DNA of 64,000 nt from Saksenaea vasiformis B4078 (lineage: Eukaryota; Mucoromycota; Mucoromycetes; Mucorales; Saksenaeaceae), in the NCBI GenBank assembly GCA_000697055.1, contig JNDT01002254.1, forward strand, positions 37,079 through 101,078. Reading direction: 5' to 3'. The notes beneath the pieces were generated by a model that ran no database searches, was not told the origin of the DNA, and saw only the letters and a list, made by a program, of their open reading frames with translations. A program made the translations under genes and the position numbers. Of the stretch, positions 52,947 through 64,000 are shown in pieces (positions within the stretch are counted from its first letter, which is position 1; every line of letters begins with the position of its first letter).

Positions 52947-55900
52947 TTATGTATATCTTGTAAAGTCCAACAGCGCTTCCGTGGGAAATCCTTCCCGGGT
53001 TGCCTTATTCACACTAGGTTCAGGTCGACTAGCCAACACGCGTTCTCTGATACGACGGATATGCCGTAGTCGTTGTCGCCAATGCGAGAGGTATTCATGT
53101 CTTCCACCTGTGCTTAGATTTTGAAAGACTTGGGCAAAAATATTGGCATGGAGTGCTGTTTGACGAATGAAACTAGGTAATGATTGTGCTGACACCAACT
53201 TGGGCTCTGTGATGGGTCCGAGTTCGGGCATGTCGGGTCGACGTTGCATTTCGACCTTGAAAAAGGTATTTTCGGCCCCCCAGAGAGCTTCGGAAGAGGT
53301 CATTGTCTCGGTGGATATCGAATGAGGTGAAATAACAATGTTAATGAAGTTGAATTGTCCCGGCAATGTGTCAAATGTGTATTTTTCGCCTGAATCATTG
53401 TACACAATCGACACATAATCATTGCCAATATGTCGTTTTTTAGCGCTGCACTGCGGATCACGCTCCAGATTTGTCGGCATCATCGTTGCCACGTGGAATA
53501 CCATCTCGGTTACATCATCCTTCCAAAAGTAGGCATAGCGTCCATCAATGTCCATTTCACGGTCAAGTCCACCCGTATTGCCGGTAAGTCCACGAAGTCG
53601 CTGGATGGTCCCCAACCCATTGAGAAACTTGACATATTCAGGCGACCCATGTGCGTTCGCAAGAATCTCAATCTCGTTGCGCTGTCCCTTGCCTACATAC
53701 AGCACACCAATTTTGTGGAAATCGACCACAGGAATAAGATCCAAATTCGAAATCGTACGCGCTGTAGTAGGTTCATCCGGCAAAGGAGGTGTCACTTCGA
53801 TGACACGACTCAAATCAGGATAATTGTGTAACTGGAGATAGAGAAATCCAGGATCGAGGGATTGCTCCATTTTTCGAAGATGGCTCACAGGTTGTGTAGA
53901 TGATGGTGGTGCAGGATCAGACAGAATCTCATGGATAGTACCCTGAAGACGTTCTTCCGAAGATGTCGGTTGTGGTGGACTTGTTGGCATCTCGTCATCG
54001 CCTATTCGCGTCACCGATCCTTTTTGAGAAAGCGAAGGTCTTGCTGATGGGCTCGTCGTCGTCGTTGGCTCCGTTGCATCAGGTTCTGTTCCATCCGACC
54101 GAGTCTCCGACGCTCGCCGTCGTTGACCAGCTGTTATCTCACCAGAAGTTTCTGGTTCGTCTGCTTCCTCGTCTTCAAAAGAAATACCCAGCGCCGCACC
54201 TTCTGCACTACTACCTTTCCGTTCTTGCTGTCGTAACATGCGTGAAGCCAACAAGTCCGGCTGGTATTGCATCATCAACAAGGCAGGTAACGTTTTGTAA
54301 TCAATACTGTCCGACTTGATCTTATTTTCGATATTACACATCATCGACACAGTGCCTGAAGGTCGTCGTATCGTCATCTCCACCCATCCCAAAGCCTTGG
54401 CCGTTTTCAAAGTCAAGAGCGTGTGGCCATAGACCCATGTGCGTGTACTCTGCTTCGTGCCTCCATCGTTCGCTCCCTCTCCCATCAGAATCTTGGACAC
54501 CATGGATTTCTCCGGTGACAGGCTGACATCAGCAAAACTGAAACGTGAAAGCATATCAATACATGTGTACGTCAGTTCATCGATGGGTCGTCCTATCGGA
54601 TTGCCGCCCAAAAGTCTTTGAATAATAAAAGGAACATGCTTTCTTCGTTCTCGTAAAGGAACAGCGGTGAACCACACGGTGATAACAAGATAAGCCATGG
54701 TGAGAACGTACTGAGCAAGGGCACTTTGATGAACCTGTTGATGATTTGGTTGCTGCTGCTGTTGTTGCTGTGATGATGATGATGATGATGCTTGCTGTTG
54801 TTGGTGTTGAAGTGCTGCAGTGCCTCCGGATGGCATGGGCGAGCCCAATGCGGGCGAACTACCCGCTCCTGGGGTTGATCCTGGTGATTGCATTTGCGTT
54901 GTAGAATGGGAGTACTGTAGATAATTCAGTGCAATAGCAAATACAGGTTTGTACATGTCTCCAGTAAAGTTGGAATACAGATCTGGTAATCGTGCAAGGC
55001 CAGAAAGAAATTCGAGGATATGGACGGACACACTACTTACAGAAATGATCTGAGACATCCGCTGAAGAATTTCGTTCAACATTTTGGCCACAGAGAGGGG
55101 AAGTTCGTGGCAACACACCGTCAATGCATTGATGCAAGGCTTCGTAGCAGCTGTGACCTGGGTAATACCAATATAAAAAGTGTAAACAATCTCGTCCTGG
55201 TATTGCTTCTTAAAATGACGTCGGTACGAGATGAGCACCGTCAACAAATGATAAGCATGGATATAAAGATCATTCCGCTTGATCGTCGACGGAAGATTTG
55301 TAACGTTTTCCAGAAACTTTCGTGTACTGATCCAACGGACAATTTCCCTTCGAAGTTCTTTGATCTGCGTCGAAGCTCCACAGAATAGATGCTTGTTCCG
55401 TAGCTGCTGTGGTAACCGTTTGAGTACAAACAGCACAACGTCCCAGTTAGGCGCAGAGGATATCACCGAGATATAGGTCTTGAGAGCATTATCCAAGGAC
55501 AGTACGGTAGTCGTCGTCTTCATCTTTTTTTCAGCATCCTCCTCCTGTACATCTTTTCCAGTGTAAGAGAGAATGGTTGAACATGGGATCATAAGGCTTT
55601 CTCCTGGCTTTGAACCACCTGTGTGCATTGGATCAGGTGCAAACGGGTTAGCTTTCTGCTGTTCCAATTTTTGCTGTCGTTTCGTTTGCTGCATAACCCG
55701 AATGGGAGCCATGATCTTTTCTTCGTCCACGATCTCTTTCGAAGGAAAGCGTGAGTTAGATCTGCTACAAGAACATGAACTAGGTCCTACCATCGCAAAT
55801 AACATAGATGTTGTGATTCGGAGGACAACGTATTCGAAGCAATAGATCCAATGCCACAATCTTGGGTCCACCATAAGGACAAAAAAGATCCTGTTGGGAA

Positions 55901-58044
55901 CCCGCAATTTCCGTGATGACCTGGTATACCTTGCCACATAGGGTAGCTTTATTTCCTGCAACCAGTTCCTCAAAAAGTTCCACCATACCACATGTAGCAA
56001 AGATGCCTTCACAGTATTTGCCTAAACCCTGTTGATGTTGATGTTGATGTTGATGTTGATGTTGTTGTTGTTGTTGTCTTTGTAGTAAATTCGATTGACT
56101 CTGTATTCGTCGGATTGCTGCGTTATCATCCTTTGCTGATGCGGCGGATTCATCCTGCTCCTCCACATATGTACCAGAAGGGATGCATTTGCATTCTGTA
56201 CACGTTTTCAAACGTTCCAAGAGCCTATCAAAGTTCTCTTCATCTAGACAATCACATAACGAGGCCACCATCAGATCGATAGATTTTTGTCGGACATCGT
56301 GACTTTTTTCTTTAGCAACACCTTCCATCATGGGCAGTACAATTTGTTTATACATATCCTCCGAATAGAAATCTTTCACGGTCCTGCAGACATCCGCGAC
56401 AATTGAGAGGACACGAAGTCGGACGGAGGGTGGGACTTCCGTTGGTGTGAAAAATGTCTTCGTCAACTCGAGCAAAAGGCCTATCCAGTTTTCAGCCGAG
56501 GGTAAAAAGAGATGTTCGGTCTCGTAGTAATCCAAGAGCGTGGATGCCATCGTTTCCGAGACGTAACTCCGTAGCGCATAGAGAACGTTGATAAAACGGG
56601 GCACGGGACCTGTGTACGTCTTGGCTGCATATTTTTTGTAGATACAAGAGAGGAACCGCACAAACTGATGGACTACACTGGTGGATGTTTTGTCCTGATC
56701 TATGTCCTGGTTTGGAAGTCGTAGAAGCACTTGTATCGAAGATTCATCCATGATCCCAAGAACATGATTTGTGCATACGTCGCAGATATCCCAAATGGCA
56801 TCCCAGTCCATCAACAGAATCGTATTTTCGGGATTTTCGACGAGAAGAGTCAAGCTTCTCAGGACGCTGGCATTGACGGTATTATTATGCTGAAGTGCGC
56901 ATCGCCGCAGATACATCAGTAGAACGGTGTCAGAAACTATATAGACGTCAACGCCTGTTCTGCTTTTCTGACCCCACGCGGTCTCGCTCAGCAGTAAGAT
57001 AGCACCGTTGATCAAGATTTCTTCCTCGTTGGATGCATCTCCTAAAGGTTCTTCCAGGAACTTGCAAAGTGTCAGGATAGCGCTGTGAGCACAGTGCGAT
57101 AGTAGGAGGTTGGTGAAGATAGGCCAAAGCGAGGCTGCTTTGCTGGGTATCAAATCGTCAGGTAGCATCACTGCTGCGCAAAGGATTTCCAAAAATGGTT
57201 TTAAAGCATCAAACGGGACAAAGCGATAACGAATCACGACGTCGGCAAAGGCGAGGCAGGCTTGAATATCGCCTGGATGATTCGTAGAGAAAAATGCACG
57301 CCGCGTTGCAGATATCATCTCTGTTACTTCCGATTCTTCGAACATGGCAAAATTGAATTTTCCCAAACAAGTGAGTAAATGAAGCTGCTCACTCAAATGG
57401 GGGATGGCTGCACCGGGAGTTGAAGTGGTTGCAGATGATCTTCGCGTATCCGTGGGGGAATCGGTAGCAGTACAGGGGATCGAGGAAAAGACGACGCGTT
57501 TCTGTGATCCACGTGGTAAGGTCATGTCCATCCACGTTATCAGTAGTTTGACAATGTTTTTCTCGAAGCCCGAAATATCCCGGCCACCTTTGCAGAGTGC
57601 AAAGAGCACATTATACATGTCATTGAAATCTTCCCAGTTGTTGTGTGTTTTGAGGGAATTGTAGAATGTCACTCTTGCCATGCCGAGTTCATCATACTGT
57701 CCACTTATGCAAGCTAGCATAAATTCAAATACTTTGTGGCGGGCATCGCGAGGCATGGTTGGTTCCAATATGTCTTGCACGGTAAAAAAGACATTGTCCA
57801 AGTGCATAAACTTATAGGTCTTGCACAACTCGGAAAAGACTCGAAGATGTTTGCAACGAGGACCTAACGGTTGTGAACTCGCTAAAAGAGGTAGAATAGG
57901 TCGAGCATCAAGTGGTGCTGAAAAATCGGCATTGCTGAGATTAAGACACGATTCGACAGAAATGGAGGATGCGCGAGTTCTAAGTATATTGCTAAGCCAA
58001 CGATTCGACGTAGAAGGAAGTTGCTTTTGCGTATTGCTTGACAT
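52947..58044 (-). CDS. Tuberin (TSC2) homologue, Rheb GAP
   Basis: Two large exons (58044-55791 and 55735-52947; a 55-nt GT-AG intron joins ICD to EIVDEEKIM) give 1680 aa, close to animal and fission-yeast tuberin. The N-terminal two thirds are HEAT-like with tuberin segments (NNWEDFNDMYNVLFALCKGG; AYHLLTVLISYRRHFKKQ; LEFLSGLARLPDLYSNFTG). The C-terminal Rap/Rheb-GAP domain includes FLNGLGTIQRLRGLTGNTGGLD and the catalytic Asn-thumb segment HIGNDYVSIVYNDSG (about residue 1522). With TSC1, tuberin turns off Rheb and so restrains TORC1. Low-complexity Gln/His and Gln runs (56030-56080; 54750-54800) and a Ser/Thr/Pro-rich region before the GAP domain are likely disordered and phospho-regulated. 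Single-letter homology is strong; the start ATG precedes a Ser/Gln-rich tip. Confidence 0.93.
56030..56080 (-). repeat. Gln/His codon repeat in the tuberin gene
   Basis: Tandem CAACATCAACATCAACAT-type units (six-base CAACAT repeats, then CAA) encode alternating His/Gln then poly-Gln. In-frame length variation would not break the gene. Confidence 0.85.
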
Positions 58045-58763
58045 TAGAAGCAGCAGCGAGCAACTGACGTTATAAGGCTTTTTTTCTTTTCTTTTTCCTG
58101 ATCGAAAAGAAATGAAGAAAAAAAAAAAGAAGAAGAGACAAGAGAGAGGGAGAGAGGGAGAGACAGAGAGAGAGGGCGAATGATAGGAAGTCCGTGACTG
58201 GTGAACATTTGAAGAAATCGGATGATATGAATCTCACAGTTTTATTCGGTCTTTCAATGCAGCGATAGTAGAAGACGAGAAATTGAAGACTATTTTTTGT
58301 AAAAATACGTTACTCTAAGAAGGTACTGATGATAAAAAGATATACTTATATTGAAAGCGAATAAAAAGAGGAATATTTTGATGTAAAAATGAACAAAAAA
58401 TAATTTTGAATTTTGTTGGTCAAACGTTTGCAAACGCACCCGAAAATAGGCAAAAACCAAAGGGTTAACCTTGGAAAATCACCATTTTCACTTCACTTTT
58501 GACAAAGAAAATTTTTTTTCATCAAAAGTCTACTACTATATAAAGTGAAACGAGTATAGTATGAATATGTTATTATTTGTTCACTCATGTAAGTACTTCT
58601 GGAGAGAAACGCGAAACAATGATCTTTCGATGGGTATTGGCTGGGGGGCATCTTGTACCTTTCATATCGGGACGAAGTTCATCTCTTTGATTTTTAGATT
58701 TTTGCGGAAGACGTATGAAATAAAAAAGAACAAACAAAAATAATCATCACATATTAACATATT
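58045..58763. other. Tuberin promoter and boundary to the mobile-element region
   Basis: Contains a GAGA/GAGAGGGAGAG purine tract (about 58136-58177) about 100-130 bp upstream of the tuberin ATG, then increasingly AT-rich DNA. No gene. Confidence 0.55.
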
Positions 58764-60990
58764 ATGTCAATCCTCGTTATTCAAAGATATCAACCTATCC
58801 CTGATTCGCAAGAAGTTCACGTTACTAATTACAGGGACATTATTCAGAAGTCTGCTCAGCTACATGGAGTTTATTGGATCCTTTATTATAGCAGCGCTAC
58901 AAAATATCGCGTTACTGACACGGAGGAGCGAACATCACGACGTGAAAAACGTTCGTTGCATCTCTGGAAATTAGTCTACATGTGCCATAGGGTGCCCTCG
59001 TTCTGGAAGCAAGATAATCCGGCATGATCGTTCTCTTGGTGACAAGACGAGTAAAATGCACCCAGTGCAAAAGGAAAAAAAGATAATTGGCTGTACTGCG
59101 CGCCTGATAGTTATTTGCGATTGCCAGTCCGGAGAAGTCGTCACCACTAAGCATGATGAGGTGCATTCTCACGCTGCCGGATCGCTAAAGGATGTGCGAG
59201 ATGGTGCAAGTCTCCTATACTCGACAATTACATGATTTACCGCCAAATTGATATATAGGAAAATCTTTTCTTGAAGTGTTAAGAGGCATCCAGCAATGCA
59301 ATTTGTACTTTCTGACTTTTGCTCTGCATTCAAGCCAGAATACCCTTGATGGCATGCAGAGATGTATCACCAAGTCTCTCTTTTAATTTTTCTTATTATT
59401 GCGAGTGATACACTGTCCAAAAAATTTGGTAGATTCTCTTTCAGCTCTCTAAATGGATAGTTGCACTGTCCTTTAGCTACTTGTCTTCTTGCATTAACTC
59501 TTATTATAGCTGCAAAGTAAGTTGATATATGGTGATGGTAAGTAGATAATCCTGAAATTGTTCGGTACAATATTTATCCATATACCTTCAAACTGCCAAT
59601 TTTTTCCTCTTCTTAAGAGAACTGATCAACTTTGACAGACTATTTATCAAAATTTTATGTAGCCATCAACTCAAAAAAAATAGATAGAACTATTTTTCAT
59701 CATGCTATAATTGAATCTATCTATTGGTAGTTATGTTAAAATGCGTTTATCAAGAGAAATAGCAGCTCAAAGTTGGGGTAAAAAATTGTCGAGTATAGGT
59801 GACTTGCACCATATCTGTCGTTGTCAGATTCCTTGAAAGATGCCATCCTTAGTAGACTTGAACAAGGCTATAGCCAGCGTGATATCTGCGTTGCGCTGCA
59901 AAAGAGGTTCGCGCATTTCGCAGCTACAAAGGAAGATGAGCAACTATCTTTGATTTAGCACCGGGATCAAGCTTTGCACTCTGTGGATATATACAATACG
60001 TATAGAAACGCGCAAAAAAACACCTTCAAGAAAAGCCAGAATGAGGTAGAATCGGTGAAGCTATGGCTAGCAAGTCTTGAGATAAAAGGATGCAGTGTAT
60101 TCTCTACAATCGATCAGTATAGTTTTGCCTTTTGTTCGTCATGGCAAAGAGCCATTCTTGCTGAATCAACGTCCTTTTGCCTCGATGCTACGCACAACAC
60201 CACGATAATCATCGATGGTATTCTTTATACTCTCGTAGTTCACCACAGAGTAACAGGAAATGGGTGTGCCTGTCGCCTATTTCTTTACTAGGGATCAGTG
60301 ACTGACATTCCTCAAGGATCATTGCGGCCTTGTATCGCCCACAAAGATTACTATTGATTACAGCATCGCCGAATACACCGCTATCTCCGTCATATTCCCA
60401 AACGCCACCATCCAGCTGTGTTTGTTCCATGTGGCTCGTGCATGGATGGATCAGATCCGCAAACGAGTGCAAGTAGGTAGTGCGACCCAGAATCCACAAA
60501 CGCACTAACAGATGATCGCGTCTTTGGAGTCATTAATGTACGAAAGGGATCCTTTGGGTGCCATGAAAAAAAAAGTTTGTTGCAGACAACCAGCAGCATA
60601 CATCATTCCTGCAATGCTTTGACGAACAGTGGCTAGTCAACGACAAAATCAAGCACTGGTGTGGAGCTTTCCAACCACAGGTCTTTACCGATATGAAAAC
60701 CAACAACTACATGGGAAGCTGGCATAACGAGCTCAAGACAACCTACCTTGAAAGAAACCGGAATAGAAGAGTGGATCGATTGATCTATACCTTGGCAAAC
60801 GATGCAGAGTTCGACTTCCAAATGACCACGGTACGAGAAAGCGCAAATATCGGAAGGATGGGGCCTGCTGAAAGACAGAGACGAAAGAATAGACGAGTTT
60901 TCACTCGTGATTCGCATGATCACGTATATATTTTTAGCATGAAAAGGATAGAGCGCATTTACACTTCGTTTTACAAAGTTTTTATCACAT
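58764..60990 (+). mobile_element. Degenerate MULE-type transposon (transposase relic)
   Basis: Pieces of a Mutator-like transposase are spread over three frames. At 59085-59200 a zinc-finger-like KIIGCTARLIVICDCQSGEV followed by TKHDEVHSHAAGSLKDVR resembles the N-terminal FLYWCH/GCM-like DNA-binding region. At 59974-60291 a frame carries the first catalytic Asp region (FCLDATHNTTIIIDG). At 60310-60470 there are KITIDYSIAEYTAI and CLFHVARAWMDQI (second Asp and CxxH). At 60693-60910 NNYMGSWHNELKTTYLERNRNRR ends the core. In-frame stops and frame changes separate the parts, so the element is broken. Terminal inverted repeats were not found by eye. An unrelated AT-rich block lies in the middle (59220-59740). 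Confidence 0.7.
59367..59570 (-). pseudogene. Possible nested transposase fragment
   Basis: A minus-strand frame inside the MULE relic encodes VNARRQVAKGQCNYPFRELK followed by LPNFLDSVSLAIIRKIKRETW. The helical end with a Phe-x-Arg/Ile-Arg-Lys...Trp pattern resembles the C-terminal tail of DDE transposases seen in mucoralean genomes. I cannot name the superfamily. Opposite strand and location in the block that splits the MULE frame suggest a later insertion. Confidence 0.3.
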
Positions 60991-61680
60991 CATAGAGACC
61001 CGACTGTGGCGAAGTCTACCTGCGTTCCAAGCATTGCTACATTGCACAGCCGCTTATTATCTTCCAATATGGAAGACAGTTCTGCGTCTACAAACTTGCT
61101 TCTTCCAGGTATTTCCTCTAAACAAAAGGAATAGTTTTTTTTGGGACACGACAACACAGTCCACAGAGACCAGTTTCTGGCAGGAATTATTTGTGTGTGA
61201 TTAGCTGTAAGAACACCTTCCCGATCCGATGGACAAAGAACCGAAGCCAATCGTACGCGGACTAATATGCAGCGATCAAACATTGACCAATAGGCTTTAA
61301 ACAGTACGAAGATTTATATGTTTTGTGGCCAGACTGCATGTAGAATTAATAATAAAACTGGAACTACTGCTGAAGTCATATGGTAGGCGTAAGGTTGGTG
61401 AATCCTGATATATTGATTTATCATTGAGCTTAAAGGCGAAAAATTACGTCGACTGATCAGATTACAACACAATGAATGCCAAGTGTGACACAAGTTTGCT
61501 GCAGTTCACAACAATGAAAACTGGCAATAAATAAACTCATTTTTTGGCAACACCGTTTGATCTCCACCGTTTTCATTTCCCTCACCTGCTGCTTTACGCT
61601 GCCGTCAACCCCTGGAACCCCTTACTGAGGAAGGCCCGCCAAGGCAACGGCAACGACAACGCTATCGCCAATCACTTCTA
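60991..61680. other. Spacer between MULE relic and Fanzor-like gene
   Basis: No supported gene; a minus-strand frame (61283-60990) has no recognised motif. It likely contains transposon end sequences or the promoter of the following gene. Confidence 0.45.
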
Positions 61681-64000
61681 CTGCGAACCGATGGCAAGAT
61701 AGGAAGAGTTACCAGAAAACTAAAGCTGTCCAGTTTTCTAAACAATGACTATAAATACTTACGAGCGAGTATTCATTCCAACAAGCAATACCTTGTTAAC
61801 ACGCTATTGACAGAAGCAATTGCGGCTTGTTGCCGAAGAATACCACGTCATGAAACGTGATGCAGTTAACCTTGTGAACCTTCATTTGCGTCGCTGGGTC
61901 GAAGGACTCGGCACAGAGAATGCTTTTCAGTTCCCACCCATTACGACTAGAATATTTTGGAGTAAAGCCTGCCGGTTCGCCAACAACCGAGTCAGTAGGG
62001 TGACCCGAGGCGTAGATGTAAGTACAGTATAGTTCTATCAAGCTGTCTAACGCAAAGCTATGTCATTTAGCCTGAATGTCAGATCGACCTACTCGAAACG
62101 TTCATGTCGCACTTCCATCCTCTGCGTAGGAACGTCGATGCTAATGAACGTAAGACATATATGCTGCTCCTAGCCGTTCGTATGCACTGACTTGTTGCTA
62201 AACGTATACATGATAGCCTTTTATGAGATCGTAGAAGTGCGGGGAGTATACACCGCATTTGGAGATACTTTCCCGCTCAAATAATTCAAAGTACTTTGAT
62301 GATCATGTTATCAATACCCGACAATCATTTATAATTTGCACCAATAGATGTAAAACGACATTTGGTGGTCAATGCCCCTATATTTCTGAAAATGGTCTTC
62401 CGCGCGTACTTTGTCCATCTGAAGGAACAGATTGGAGGGAACCTCCCCGGTGGCGGCCCCGCTCACCATGGTAAATAAACTCTGCTCAAAGGTCCAGTGA
62501 TCTCATATCTATCATTTATAGCTGATGTAGCTGTAGCAAACGTTCTCAACCATGAACCACTGCAGGATAACGTATGGGAAGTTATGCCTCGTCGAGCAGA
62601 AGTGGCAGAGTTTTACCGGTAAGTACGACAGATTAATCATGTGTAATTGATTAACGTCTATGCTGCTCTCATAGTATCCAGCATGAACTTTACGAACGTC
62701 ATATGGCTGGTGTGGAAATCCGTGATTTGGACCCGGAAGACGACGAAGCTGTTCCGCTCATGCCACGTATTGTTCAGTATATCTATCATTTGCACCATTA
62801 CAGTACCGAACATAACGGGAAACTCTGGTCATTGCTTCCGATAACCGACCATCAGATCGGCCATTTTCCCATATTCACAAGAGTACTGTGGTATCTACTG
62901 CGAGACGCCTACTTGGCAAACCAGCATGTTCCCGAACGGCTTCTGGTAACCAAGTTTACATAGTATATGCATCTGATACTTTTTTCAATTTAGGGCCCAC
63001 GACGAGGTCCACTCCGAAGAACGTTCATGCCTCAACAACAATTCGAGCATCGACGCTGCGACAGCGAGTGGAAAGAGGCGATCTGGGAGGAAATTTTCGA
63101 TATCGATAGATGTCAAGCGAAACGTCGGCGATTTGATCCTGAACGTAAGCAATCTTCTATTAAAGTCTATCATCCAACTGATTTGCTTCTTGCAGATGAT
63201 CAACCGGAACTCCAGTTGGAGTTTGCATATTACTTGCAAACCGACGGGGTGTCTGTCTCCGCACAATTCGACCGCCGTCGACCAGGTATGCCAATGAAGA
63301 GTCTTCCATTACTTACTGTGTTTCATAAGAACGATATCCATCTTCTAAACGAGATTTTCGACTGCTGCCCTGAGAGATGGACCTGAGTACTTGGCAAAGA
63401 GGAAAATATCATCTGAATAAGGAGCCTCGTGGGCTAGACCAGGATCGATTAGCTCAGTCAAGAATCATTGGTGTAGATCCAGGCGTGTGACTGACGGTCG
63501 ATCTCTTTCTACATCTAACATTCTTATAGGGATCCGATCGTTGTTCACAGCCGTAGATACAAACGAAGCTATGGACACTCCCGAACTTCGCAACGCTCAT
63601 TCTGCCACGATCAGTAACAAAGATACCAGTAAGTTACAAATGTCCCCCTATTGTTGAGCTAATCTTGGTATCCATAGACTGCGGTCAATCTTTTCATGGT
63701 CGAAGCAGAATGAACTGAAATCTAGGACCGCGGCAGAAATACAGCCTCAGTACGACTTATTGACGAACAACCCTCCCACCGTTATGAGCATGCAAGGATT
63801 TCAGCGATATATCACTGCCTTGAGCATCATTCATAACACGTAAGAAAACGCATGAAATCAATTCTGTTAATTCCTTATTAGGCTCCATAACTTCAACAAA
63901 AGCTATCGACATCGAGAAAATCGACTCCTTTTCTACTCTGCCAGGCAGAGCAGAAAAGGAGTCGATTTTCTCGATGTCGATAGCTTTTGTTGAAGTTATG
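61680..64000 (+). CDS. Fanzor-type (TnpB-like) nuclease gene, partial at the window end
   Basis: Ten exons fit one frame with no stop: 61814-62017, 62071-62149, 62228-62290, 62348-62470, 62522-62618, 62675-62945, 62994-63144, 63196-63285, 63375-63482, 63530-63628 (about 360 codons). An earlier exon around 61680-61790 probably exists. Fanzor-like features are the long helical N-terminal part (VKRHLVVNAPIFLKMVFRAY; NGKLWSLLPITDH), then LQTDGVSVSAQFDRRRP, then about 40 residues later RIIGVDPGIRSLFTAVD, read as RuvC-I with its catalytic Asp. The intron inside RuvC-I is GC-AG. A following exon (about 63678-63835: KQNELKSRTAAEI, then MSMQGFQRYITAL) fits the family but joins one base out of phase by the obvious splice. 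The later RuvC motifs and zinc finger lie beyond the window. Family call is by motif only; other TnpB-derived or unknown transposon proteins remain possible. Confidence 0.6.
63886..64000. repeat. Near-perfect 115-bp palindrome at the window end
   Basis: Bases 63886-63942 are the reverse complement of 63944-64000 around a single central A (63943), with one mismatch (A63935 against C63951). The arms are 57 bp and may continue past the window. Confidence 0.95.

Follow-up and report, generated by a model that had tools for sequence, protein, structure and literature searches.

Fanzors are the eukaryotic members of the TnpB/Cas12 line of RNA-guided DNA cutters, and little is known about guide production in the hosts themselves. 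For PpFz1 of Parasitella parasitica, the available text of Xu et al. (2024) gives an omegaRNA of 75 nucleotides (nt) with two stem-loops, SL1 and SL2, and a guide segment named C50-C58. It was also already known that Fanzor1 genes occur in mucoralean MuDR elements with 9-bp duplications, and the same work describes MCi-2 as having a 3' part that is constant and 5' parts that vary (Bao and Jurka, 2013; PMC3627910). Here, we describe a Fanzor1-like gene at the end of a 64,000-nt stretch of the Saksenaea vasiformis B4078 genome (contig JNDT01002254.1, or C540, positions 37079-101078; hereafter the window), the Mutator-like (MULE) transposon family that carries it, and the right ends of its sister copies.

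The best explanation of what we found, to which we give a probability of roughly 0.64 on the strength of the sequences, is that the window's gene descends from a MULE-borne, Fanzor1-like gene family whose intact members would act as RNA-guided homing devices, and whose guide-proximal hairpin would be split by a spliceosomal intron. An intact element would most likely work as follows. A single transcript would span the gene, the right end of the element and the flanking DNA; the right-end hairpins would constitute the omegaRNA scaffold, and the flank directly past the border the guide. An intron within the guide-proximal hairpin would be spliced out, which would bring the upstream arm next to the final 7-11 nt of the element and hence to the guide; the exon past the intron would comprise just these 7-11 nt of transposon, followed by genomic guide. 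The matching site, where no element is present, would next be cut by the RuvC nuclease, and its repair would bring in a copy of the element. Somewhat less firmly, we favor the broader proposition that several Fanzor families of this fungus encode their guide RNAs in split genes, in which the spliceosome would join scaffold and guide, and that guide production and homing would be gated by nuclear splicing. What the sequence itself shows is the gene with its catalytic motifs, the purifying selection on it, the conserved hairpins, the borders of the element and, in four families (most weakly in B), intron-like borders with pairing at the junction; transcription, splicing, guide loading, cutting and homing are steps that we infer.

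In the genome searched (38.7 Mb, 666 contigs), 23 stretches on 20 contigs match window positions 61680-63000 by DNA, the window's own included, some of the copies being in pieces. For the right ends, a search with the last 241 bp returned 43 rows, namely 23 close ones (82-100% identity), which form the window's family (A) with its subfamilies, and 20 at 17 places of a second family (B). We examined 29 right ends: 19 of the 23 in family A (another, on C537, runs into its contig end, and three were left aside) and 10 of the 17 places of family B. Parsing succeeded for 26 of them (17/19 in A and 9/10 in B; L049, L056 and L066 were unparsed). These 26 copies lie in 26 different flanks, and their matches to other copies end at the same base, which marks the element border.

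Three hairpins (H1-H3) precede this border, and the right ends of family B align with those of A only as far as H3. The arms of H1, read off the alignments, are GCCCC/GGGGC in A and GCACC/GGTGC in B; their sequence differs and their complementarity is kept. H2, which holds the stop codon in its loop, reads GGCAG..CTGCC in A and GGCCG..CGGCC in B, one of its five pairs being A-U in A and C-G in B (B contributing 5 of 14 rows). When H2 and H3 were tested on 14 of the 16 distinct rows (L049 and L055 left out; H1 left unpaired, its arms being out of register between A and B in the ungapped alignment), 99.2% of cells paired, compared to at most 44.4% in slid versions and 94.1% in shuffles, none of 500 of which scored as high. 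Rfam returned nothing at its gathering score for the four loci submitted. We presume that the right-end hairpins of the sister copies are the omegaRNA scaffold.

Past H3 comes the guide-proximal hairpin, whose arms are set apart by a GT-AG stretch that has some features of an intron. In family A, CCTGGTGTGCTGTC-TTCG-GGCAG is followed by GTAAGA...CTTAAG, then by TGCACTGG and then by unique flank; with the GT-AG stretch removed, GGCAG is joined to TGCACTGG to give a 13-bp stem on a UUCG loop, and the end of the stem is the end of the element. Right ends of the type found in L020, the best-preserved sister copy, finish one base earlier (...CACCG), and the outermost pair of the stem may use a flank base. 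The GT donor is present in 16/17 copies of A and 8/9 of B, and the AG acceptor in 8/9 of B and 17/17 of A, the latter by construction, as the parsing pattern for family A required it. Among the 16 of 17 parsed A copies with full-length arms, all 13 positions pair in ten and 12 pair in six, and 14 of the 16 keep all seven of the pairs that span the junction; changes there are one-sided and kept by G-U pairs. Altogether, 97% of cells pair in the true register of the split hairpin, compared to 25-51% in slid versions.

The same arrangement recurs elsewhere. Family B has the layout GGGAGAGC-UUC^G-GCCCUUCC, the caret marking the junction. In a third Fanzor family, C, of which four copies were read, UACAGUU^GAAA-AACUGUA has the layout TTACAGTT^GAAAAACTGTA; the border is fixed here by the nine other close matches, every one of which breaks off at 359-362 (near position 1958 of L031). 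Family E, with five copies read out of 17 places, has the layout UACACUGCUUAG^GAGCAGUGUA, with 9/9 pairs in four copies and 8/9 in L070. Of its 16 other main matches, 13 have their end at query positions 359-361, and three do not: C613 (353), C88 (310) and C514 (369). All five copies read have GTAAA donors and CAG acceptors; the branch site of the family resembles GCTAAC, and pyrimidines are abundant just before the CAG. Four Fanzor families show this one layout with pairing across the junction, most weakly in B: A and B, and C and E, whose sequences are different. In a further TnpB-like family, D (L029, L030 and L032; motif LDRDLNGARN), we saw neither a clear right end close to the gene nor a terminal hairpin with a GT-AG or GTAAG stretch.

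To gauge chance, we scanned random positions with plausible splice sites and found stems of at least 7, 9 and 13 bp at 119, 28 and 3 of 4000; with any GT-AG, the counts were 361, 74 and 2 of 4000. These values are to be read with the provisos that the null pool includes loci holding these elements and that the pattern in A, C and E was noticed before it was scored. By this measure, family C alone would be weak (0.03), E moderate (0.007) and A strong (0.0008), and it is their agreement that appears persuasive. The strict scan gave nothing for L071, which has too little upstream DNA.

The family behind these right ends is well represented by L020 (contig C420), which is open through all 18 exons and 807 codons. 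As 23 stretches of the same genome match by DNA and one sister is open over 18 exons, the gene is not a chance pattern. Its predicted product of 807 amino acids (aa) is a Fanzor1-like RuvC nuclease. It matches the Pfam profile Cas12f1-like_TNB (PF07282) with E=6.3e-5 and 23.5 bits, below the curated cut-off of 26.3, and in a PDB sequence search at E<=1 its only match was Parasitella parasitica Fanzor1, with E=0.0017 over the RuvC-II region; the Fanzor-like identity proposed in the original prediction, which had been made from the DNA alone, is supported by these two matches. The products of families C and E lie above the PF07282 cut-off (56.8 and 55.2 bits). A search of about 5.8 billion predicted proteins with the L020 protein gave no match at E<=0.001. 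The RuvC triad of L020 consists of D463, E663 and the D of NRD, with the same motifs in family B; the RuvC-II Glu and RuvC-III Asp, whose absence downstream was to have counted against a Fanzor, are thus both present. In L020, D463 is followed after 202 residues by TS at 666, then by a CxxC, and the RD ends at 762. According to the pertinent passages of Bao and Jurka, the definition is D-X(125,275)-[TS][TS]XX-[C4 zinc finger]-X(5,50)-RD (PMC3627910), and the 202 residues lie inside its range of 125-275. Instead of the published C4, the zinc finger of A and B reads CxxC...CxxH, with CHHH in A and CNQH in B, and the distal CxxC was not seen. Compared with A, the family B protein shows 47-55% identity for pieces of its RuvC half and 34-61% for most pieces of its N-terminal half.

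Fourteen copies were aligned, and the exon borders were set from that alignment. Beside L020, L022 has a single stop, and L010, open over 758 codons, misses its final exon; the remaining 11, among them that of the window, have stops, frameshifts or truncations at contig ends. The ratio of nonsynonymous to synonymous substitution rates (dN/dS) is 0.12 for L020/L010 (757 codons), 0.123 for L022/L010 and 0.124 for L020/L022, a close pair with a dS of 0.05; partial pairs with L017 gave 0.113 and 0.086, for a range over five pairs of 0.09-0.12. To judge from these ratios, the family behind the window copy is under purifying selection, or was until recently. In L020, the 17 coding introns measure 44-57 nt, and introns 7 and 16 have GC donors; that of intron 16 (GCAAGT) is kept in L016, L020, L022 and L010, which makes it a conserved GC-AG intron. 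By eye, the 3' third of the gene seems more similar between L012, L016, L020 and L028 than the 5' part, as if homogenized by gene conversion. The genome is rich in TnpB/Fanzor genes, since PF07282 matches at least 137 places at E<=0.001 among the 150 of 388 candidates that were scored; together with the style of the introns and the Parasitella match, this load points to a fungus that is probably mucoralean.

Several properties of the GT-AG stretch argue for its removal and against the alternative that the same Fanzor1 MULE element retains it, unspliced, as a large loop or bulge of the mature omegaRNA, a reading we regard as unlikely, if one to be taken seriously. Its GTAAG- or GTAAA-type donors and AG acceptors are placed in four families such that removal gives a compact hairpin, and family E adds a branch site and pyrimidine tract of canonical appearance. 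It measures 56-61 nt in the window's family (59 nt in L020) and resembles the coding introns in length in A, B and E. Within family A, it diverges faster than the arms (36/57 between L012 and L020, against 21/24 and 6/7), and the shortened B copies L061 and L062 keep both of its borders. The spliced scaffold of family E would have about 50 nt in two stem-loops, followed by flank, and the unspliced one 115 nt; set beside the 75-nt omegaRNA of PpFz1, this fits splicing, but only as a likeness of lengths. A group I or II intron was rejected in view of the GT-AG borders and the short stretch.

A number of observations, on the other hand, weigh against splicing, and some of them speak directly for a retained loop. 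Nine folds were computed, and in most of them the unspliced RNA can pair its arms around the insert, which then forms a loop. The probability that the arms pair, unspliced and spliced, is 0.95 and 1.00 in L012, 0.67 and 0.98 in L018, 0.41 and 1.00 in L020, 0.83 and 0.99 in L051, 0.56 and 0.95 in L031 of family C, 0.97 and 0.97 in L036 of family E, 0.96 and 0.98 in L068, and 0.02 and 0.63 in L069; in family B, the arms even pair better unspliced (0.86) than spliced (0.44). Covariation across the junction is not significant: for all 13 pairs of family A (11 of 12 distinct rows; L057, which has a deletion, was left out), the score is reached by 2 of 500 shuffles, but the sole pair changed on both sides is the outermost one, in which the partner in L020 belongs to the flank; once this pair is dropped, the score is matched by 401 of 500 shuffles. 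The case consequently rests on complementarity, position and recurrence in families, and not on covariation. In H2 and H3, likewise, only one of nine pairs changed on both sides, a single A/B contrast, and 465 of 500 shuffles match this count. Between A and B, the stretch (29/54) is no more diverged than the arms (8/14 and 4/7), and in both families the acceptor sits in a short terminal inverted repeat, a second possible cause of its conservation. The junction stem of B has a mismatch (7/8 pairs in seven of nine copies, 6/8 in two), and the strict scan recovered neither B nor L052. In family C, the stretch of 152-162 nt exceeds the length of coding introns, and one of the four copies, L034, is without the acceptor AG. 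Searches for intron-less copies of the spliced hairpin gave no matches for A and E (B was not searched) and, for C, one match with two mismatches, compared to four matches in the control. Finally, family A does not have a plain C4 zinc finger.

Introns in untranslated regions (UTRs) are common in fungi, and the terminal intron might accordingly be an ordinary 3'-UTR intron of the mRNA, with the guide RNA ending earlier or no longer being made and the arm pairing left over from a transposon-end palindrome. H1-H3 lie upstream of the donor and are conserved between A and B, whereas the part past H3 is not alignable, and they could alone be a complete scaffold. Still, we find this explanation very improbable, given that the upstream and downstream arms pair in 97% of cells and that, according to Saito (2023), the guide of SpuFz1 comes from DNA just past the conserved element end, a point that here follows the intron. 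It is also improbable, if a shade less so, that all copies are dead fossils and that the right-end structure reflects repeat homology without present function: the 11 of 14 aligned copies that are broken or cut by contig ends, the window's among them, would be expected then, but the dN/dS of about 0.12, found even in the close pair L020/L022, and the one fully open copy point the other way. A guide-proximal hairpin split by a spliceosomal intron is the explanation we prefer.

The Fanzor1-like gene is carried by a MULE transposon family. A 473-aa frame of L010, homologous to the MULE stretch of the window, matches Pfam MULE (8.9e-8) and Transposase_mut (6e-6), both above cut-off. In elements of the window's type (L009, L010, L014 and L016), the transposase lies upstream of the Fanzor gene in + orientation; in L012 and L067, it lies upstream in - orientation, and no more of it was recognized than the C-terminal part and a SWIM finger (in L067 at 4.7e-4, just above cut-off). 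Most of the left ends read show CGATTTA followed, at variable distance, by GTCACAAA and CTTTTATTCGG; in A and B, the right ends have TTTGTGACTTA(A)G or a sequence close to it. When seven copies were each compared by blast with themselves, no terminal inverted repeats came up at the ends; by eye, a short one can be read, CTTAGGTCACAAA / TTTGTGACTTAG.

Two exact 9-bp flank matches fit the duplications made by MULEs, although each time the paired ends are on different contigs: AAGACACAG for L046/L059 (C492 left, C491 right; found by script) and AAGCGTTGG for L067/L062 (C272 left, C197 right; found by eye). Elements with both ends on a single contig (C272, C456 and C525) showed no 9-bp duplication, which we read as the result of assembly joins or of recombination inside repeats. 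As the end of C491 and the start of C492 hold the right and left parts of one family B element with the common flank AAGACACAG, these contigs are probably neighbors in the genome. Nine bases past the end of L061, its right flank contains a further CGATTTACTT, the left-end word, perhaps from a tandem or nested insertion. A 5' truncation of the type seen in long interspersed nuclear elements (LINEs) was rejected, since most left ends converge on CGATTTA and putative 9-bp duplications were found. No viral contigs were confirmed.

The window copy itself is a decayed and shortened pseudogene of the Fanzor1-like nuclease, an ordinary dead transposon gene of a known kind. In the following list of features, exons were placed by alignment with the sister copies, with length changes given relative to these.

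59811-60995, + strand: MULE transposase remnant with several broken frames, immediately 5' of the Fanzor gene (matches to L010, L016 and L014 by blastn; Pfam on the homologous L010 frame)
61612-61764, + strand: Fanzor exon 1, no ATG at the start position
61814-62017, + strand: Fanzor exon 2
62071-62149, + strand: Fanzor exon 3
62217-62290, + strand: Fanzor exon 4, frameshifting length change
62348-62470, + strand: Fanzor exon 5
62522-62618, + strand: Fanzor exon 6
62675-62945, + strand: Fanzor exon 7
62994-63144, + strand: Fanzor exon 8
63196-63285, + strand: Fanzor exon 9, with TDGVSVS
63330-63482, + strand: Fanzor exon 10, with RuvC-I IIGVDPG and the one in-frame TGA
63530-63628, + strand: Fanzor exon 11, with GIRSLFTAVD and the second of two frameshifting length changes
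63678-63839, + strand: Fanzor exon 12
63882-63952, + strand: Fanzor exon 13, cut off
63890-64000, no strand: probable artefact, fold-back palindrome at the contig end (49-bp exact arm)

The gene thus retains 13 of 18 exons. Its borders are mostly GT-AG and in some cases GC-AG (introns 1 and 10 have GC donors), so that the multi-exon structure of the original prediction stands; its ten exons become 13, and its single open frame is broken. TDGVSVS and the RuvC-I motif, VDPG/GIRSLFTAVD, are confirmed, in exon 9 and across exons 10 and 11. The further suggestion that this copy is functional or only recently dead, unlike the broken MULE beside it, did not hold up, as both are broken in the window and the Fanzor gene is also cut short; one sister copy, however, is intact and others are nearly so. 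Of the catalytic motifs, the window contains RuvC-I, with RuvC-II, RuvC-III, the zinc finger and the right end lying outside: its final base, 101078, is also the final base of the contig, such that exons 14-18 and the right end, with any guide locus of the copy's own, are beyond C540. Where the original prediction placed that locus, just past the window, the sisters do have a conserved right end that forms hairpins. The final ~110 bases fold back on themselves in a palindrome that was found neither in the sister copies nor, with a 15-base seed, in 400 bases at each of 12 other contig ends, and that is probably an assembly artefact. Pfam searches with seven open frames of the window (five Fanzor and two MULE) gave no Fanzor or MULE match and just two unrelated matches below cut-off; recognition by Pfam was thus due to the spliced sister protein, as single window frames gave no Fanzor match. 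Further upstream, at 55783-58233 on the - strand, an 817-aa frame carries Pfam DUF3384 (2.1e-75), which we take to be the N-terminal part of tuberin-like proteins.

If the split guide is real, such guides would be made in a manner that is new. With a guide that came into being only through splicing, a nuclease of bacterial type would be linked to the spliceosome of eukaryotes, and this could account for the sharing of one transcript between mRNA and guide; for such families, guides predicted from unspliced genomic DNA would be wrong. In the accessible main text of Saito (2023) and in that of Xu et al. (2024), the word 'intron' is absent and the few mentions of 'splic' concern cyclophilin roles or reference titles; the available text of Yoon (2023) contains neither word. 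Among the literature matches listed for Fanzor with introns or splicing, there was no paper on an intron within an omegaRNA, although others may have priority.

The elements described here share a mucoralean host and a MULE link with ROr-4, PBl-3 and MCi-4, the MuDR elements of Rhizopus, Phycomyces and Mucor (PMC3627910), and the two 9-bp flank matches would fit the duplications known from those. We count it as a difference from these that the window's family has a MULE transposase or its remnant beside the Fanzor gene, and the passages in question contain no guide-RNA analysis. With PpFz1 (PDB 9cf0-9cf3) and SpuFz1 of Spizellomyces, they have in common the positions of the RuvC triad and a TNB-like region. 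The omegaRNAs of those two proteins are described, in the text available, as 75- and 90-nt RNAs, whereas here the last hairpin has an intron-like interruption; the putative spliced scaffold of family E, at about 50 nt, would come close to the 75-nt omegaRNA of PpFz1, in which guide residues are C50-C58. As in both systems, there are hairpins at the right end, and the guide is expected just past the border. A conflict between splicing and guide formation exists in IStrons. These combine a group I intron with TnpB insertion sequences and, as the elements studied here would, unite splicing and a TnpB-type element in one mobile unit (PMC4227781). Unlike in IStrons, however, where the whole element is a self-removing intron, it would be a small intron of the spliceosomal type that lies inside the guide scaffold here, and its removal would complete the guide.

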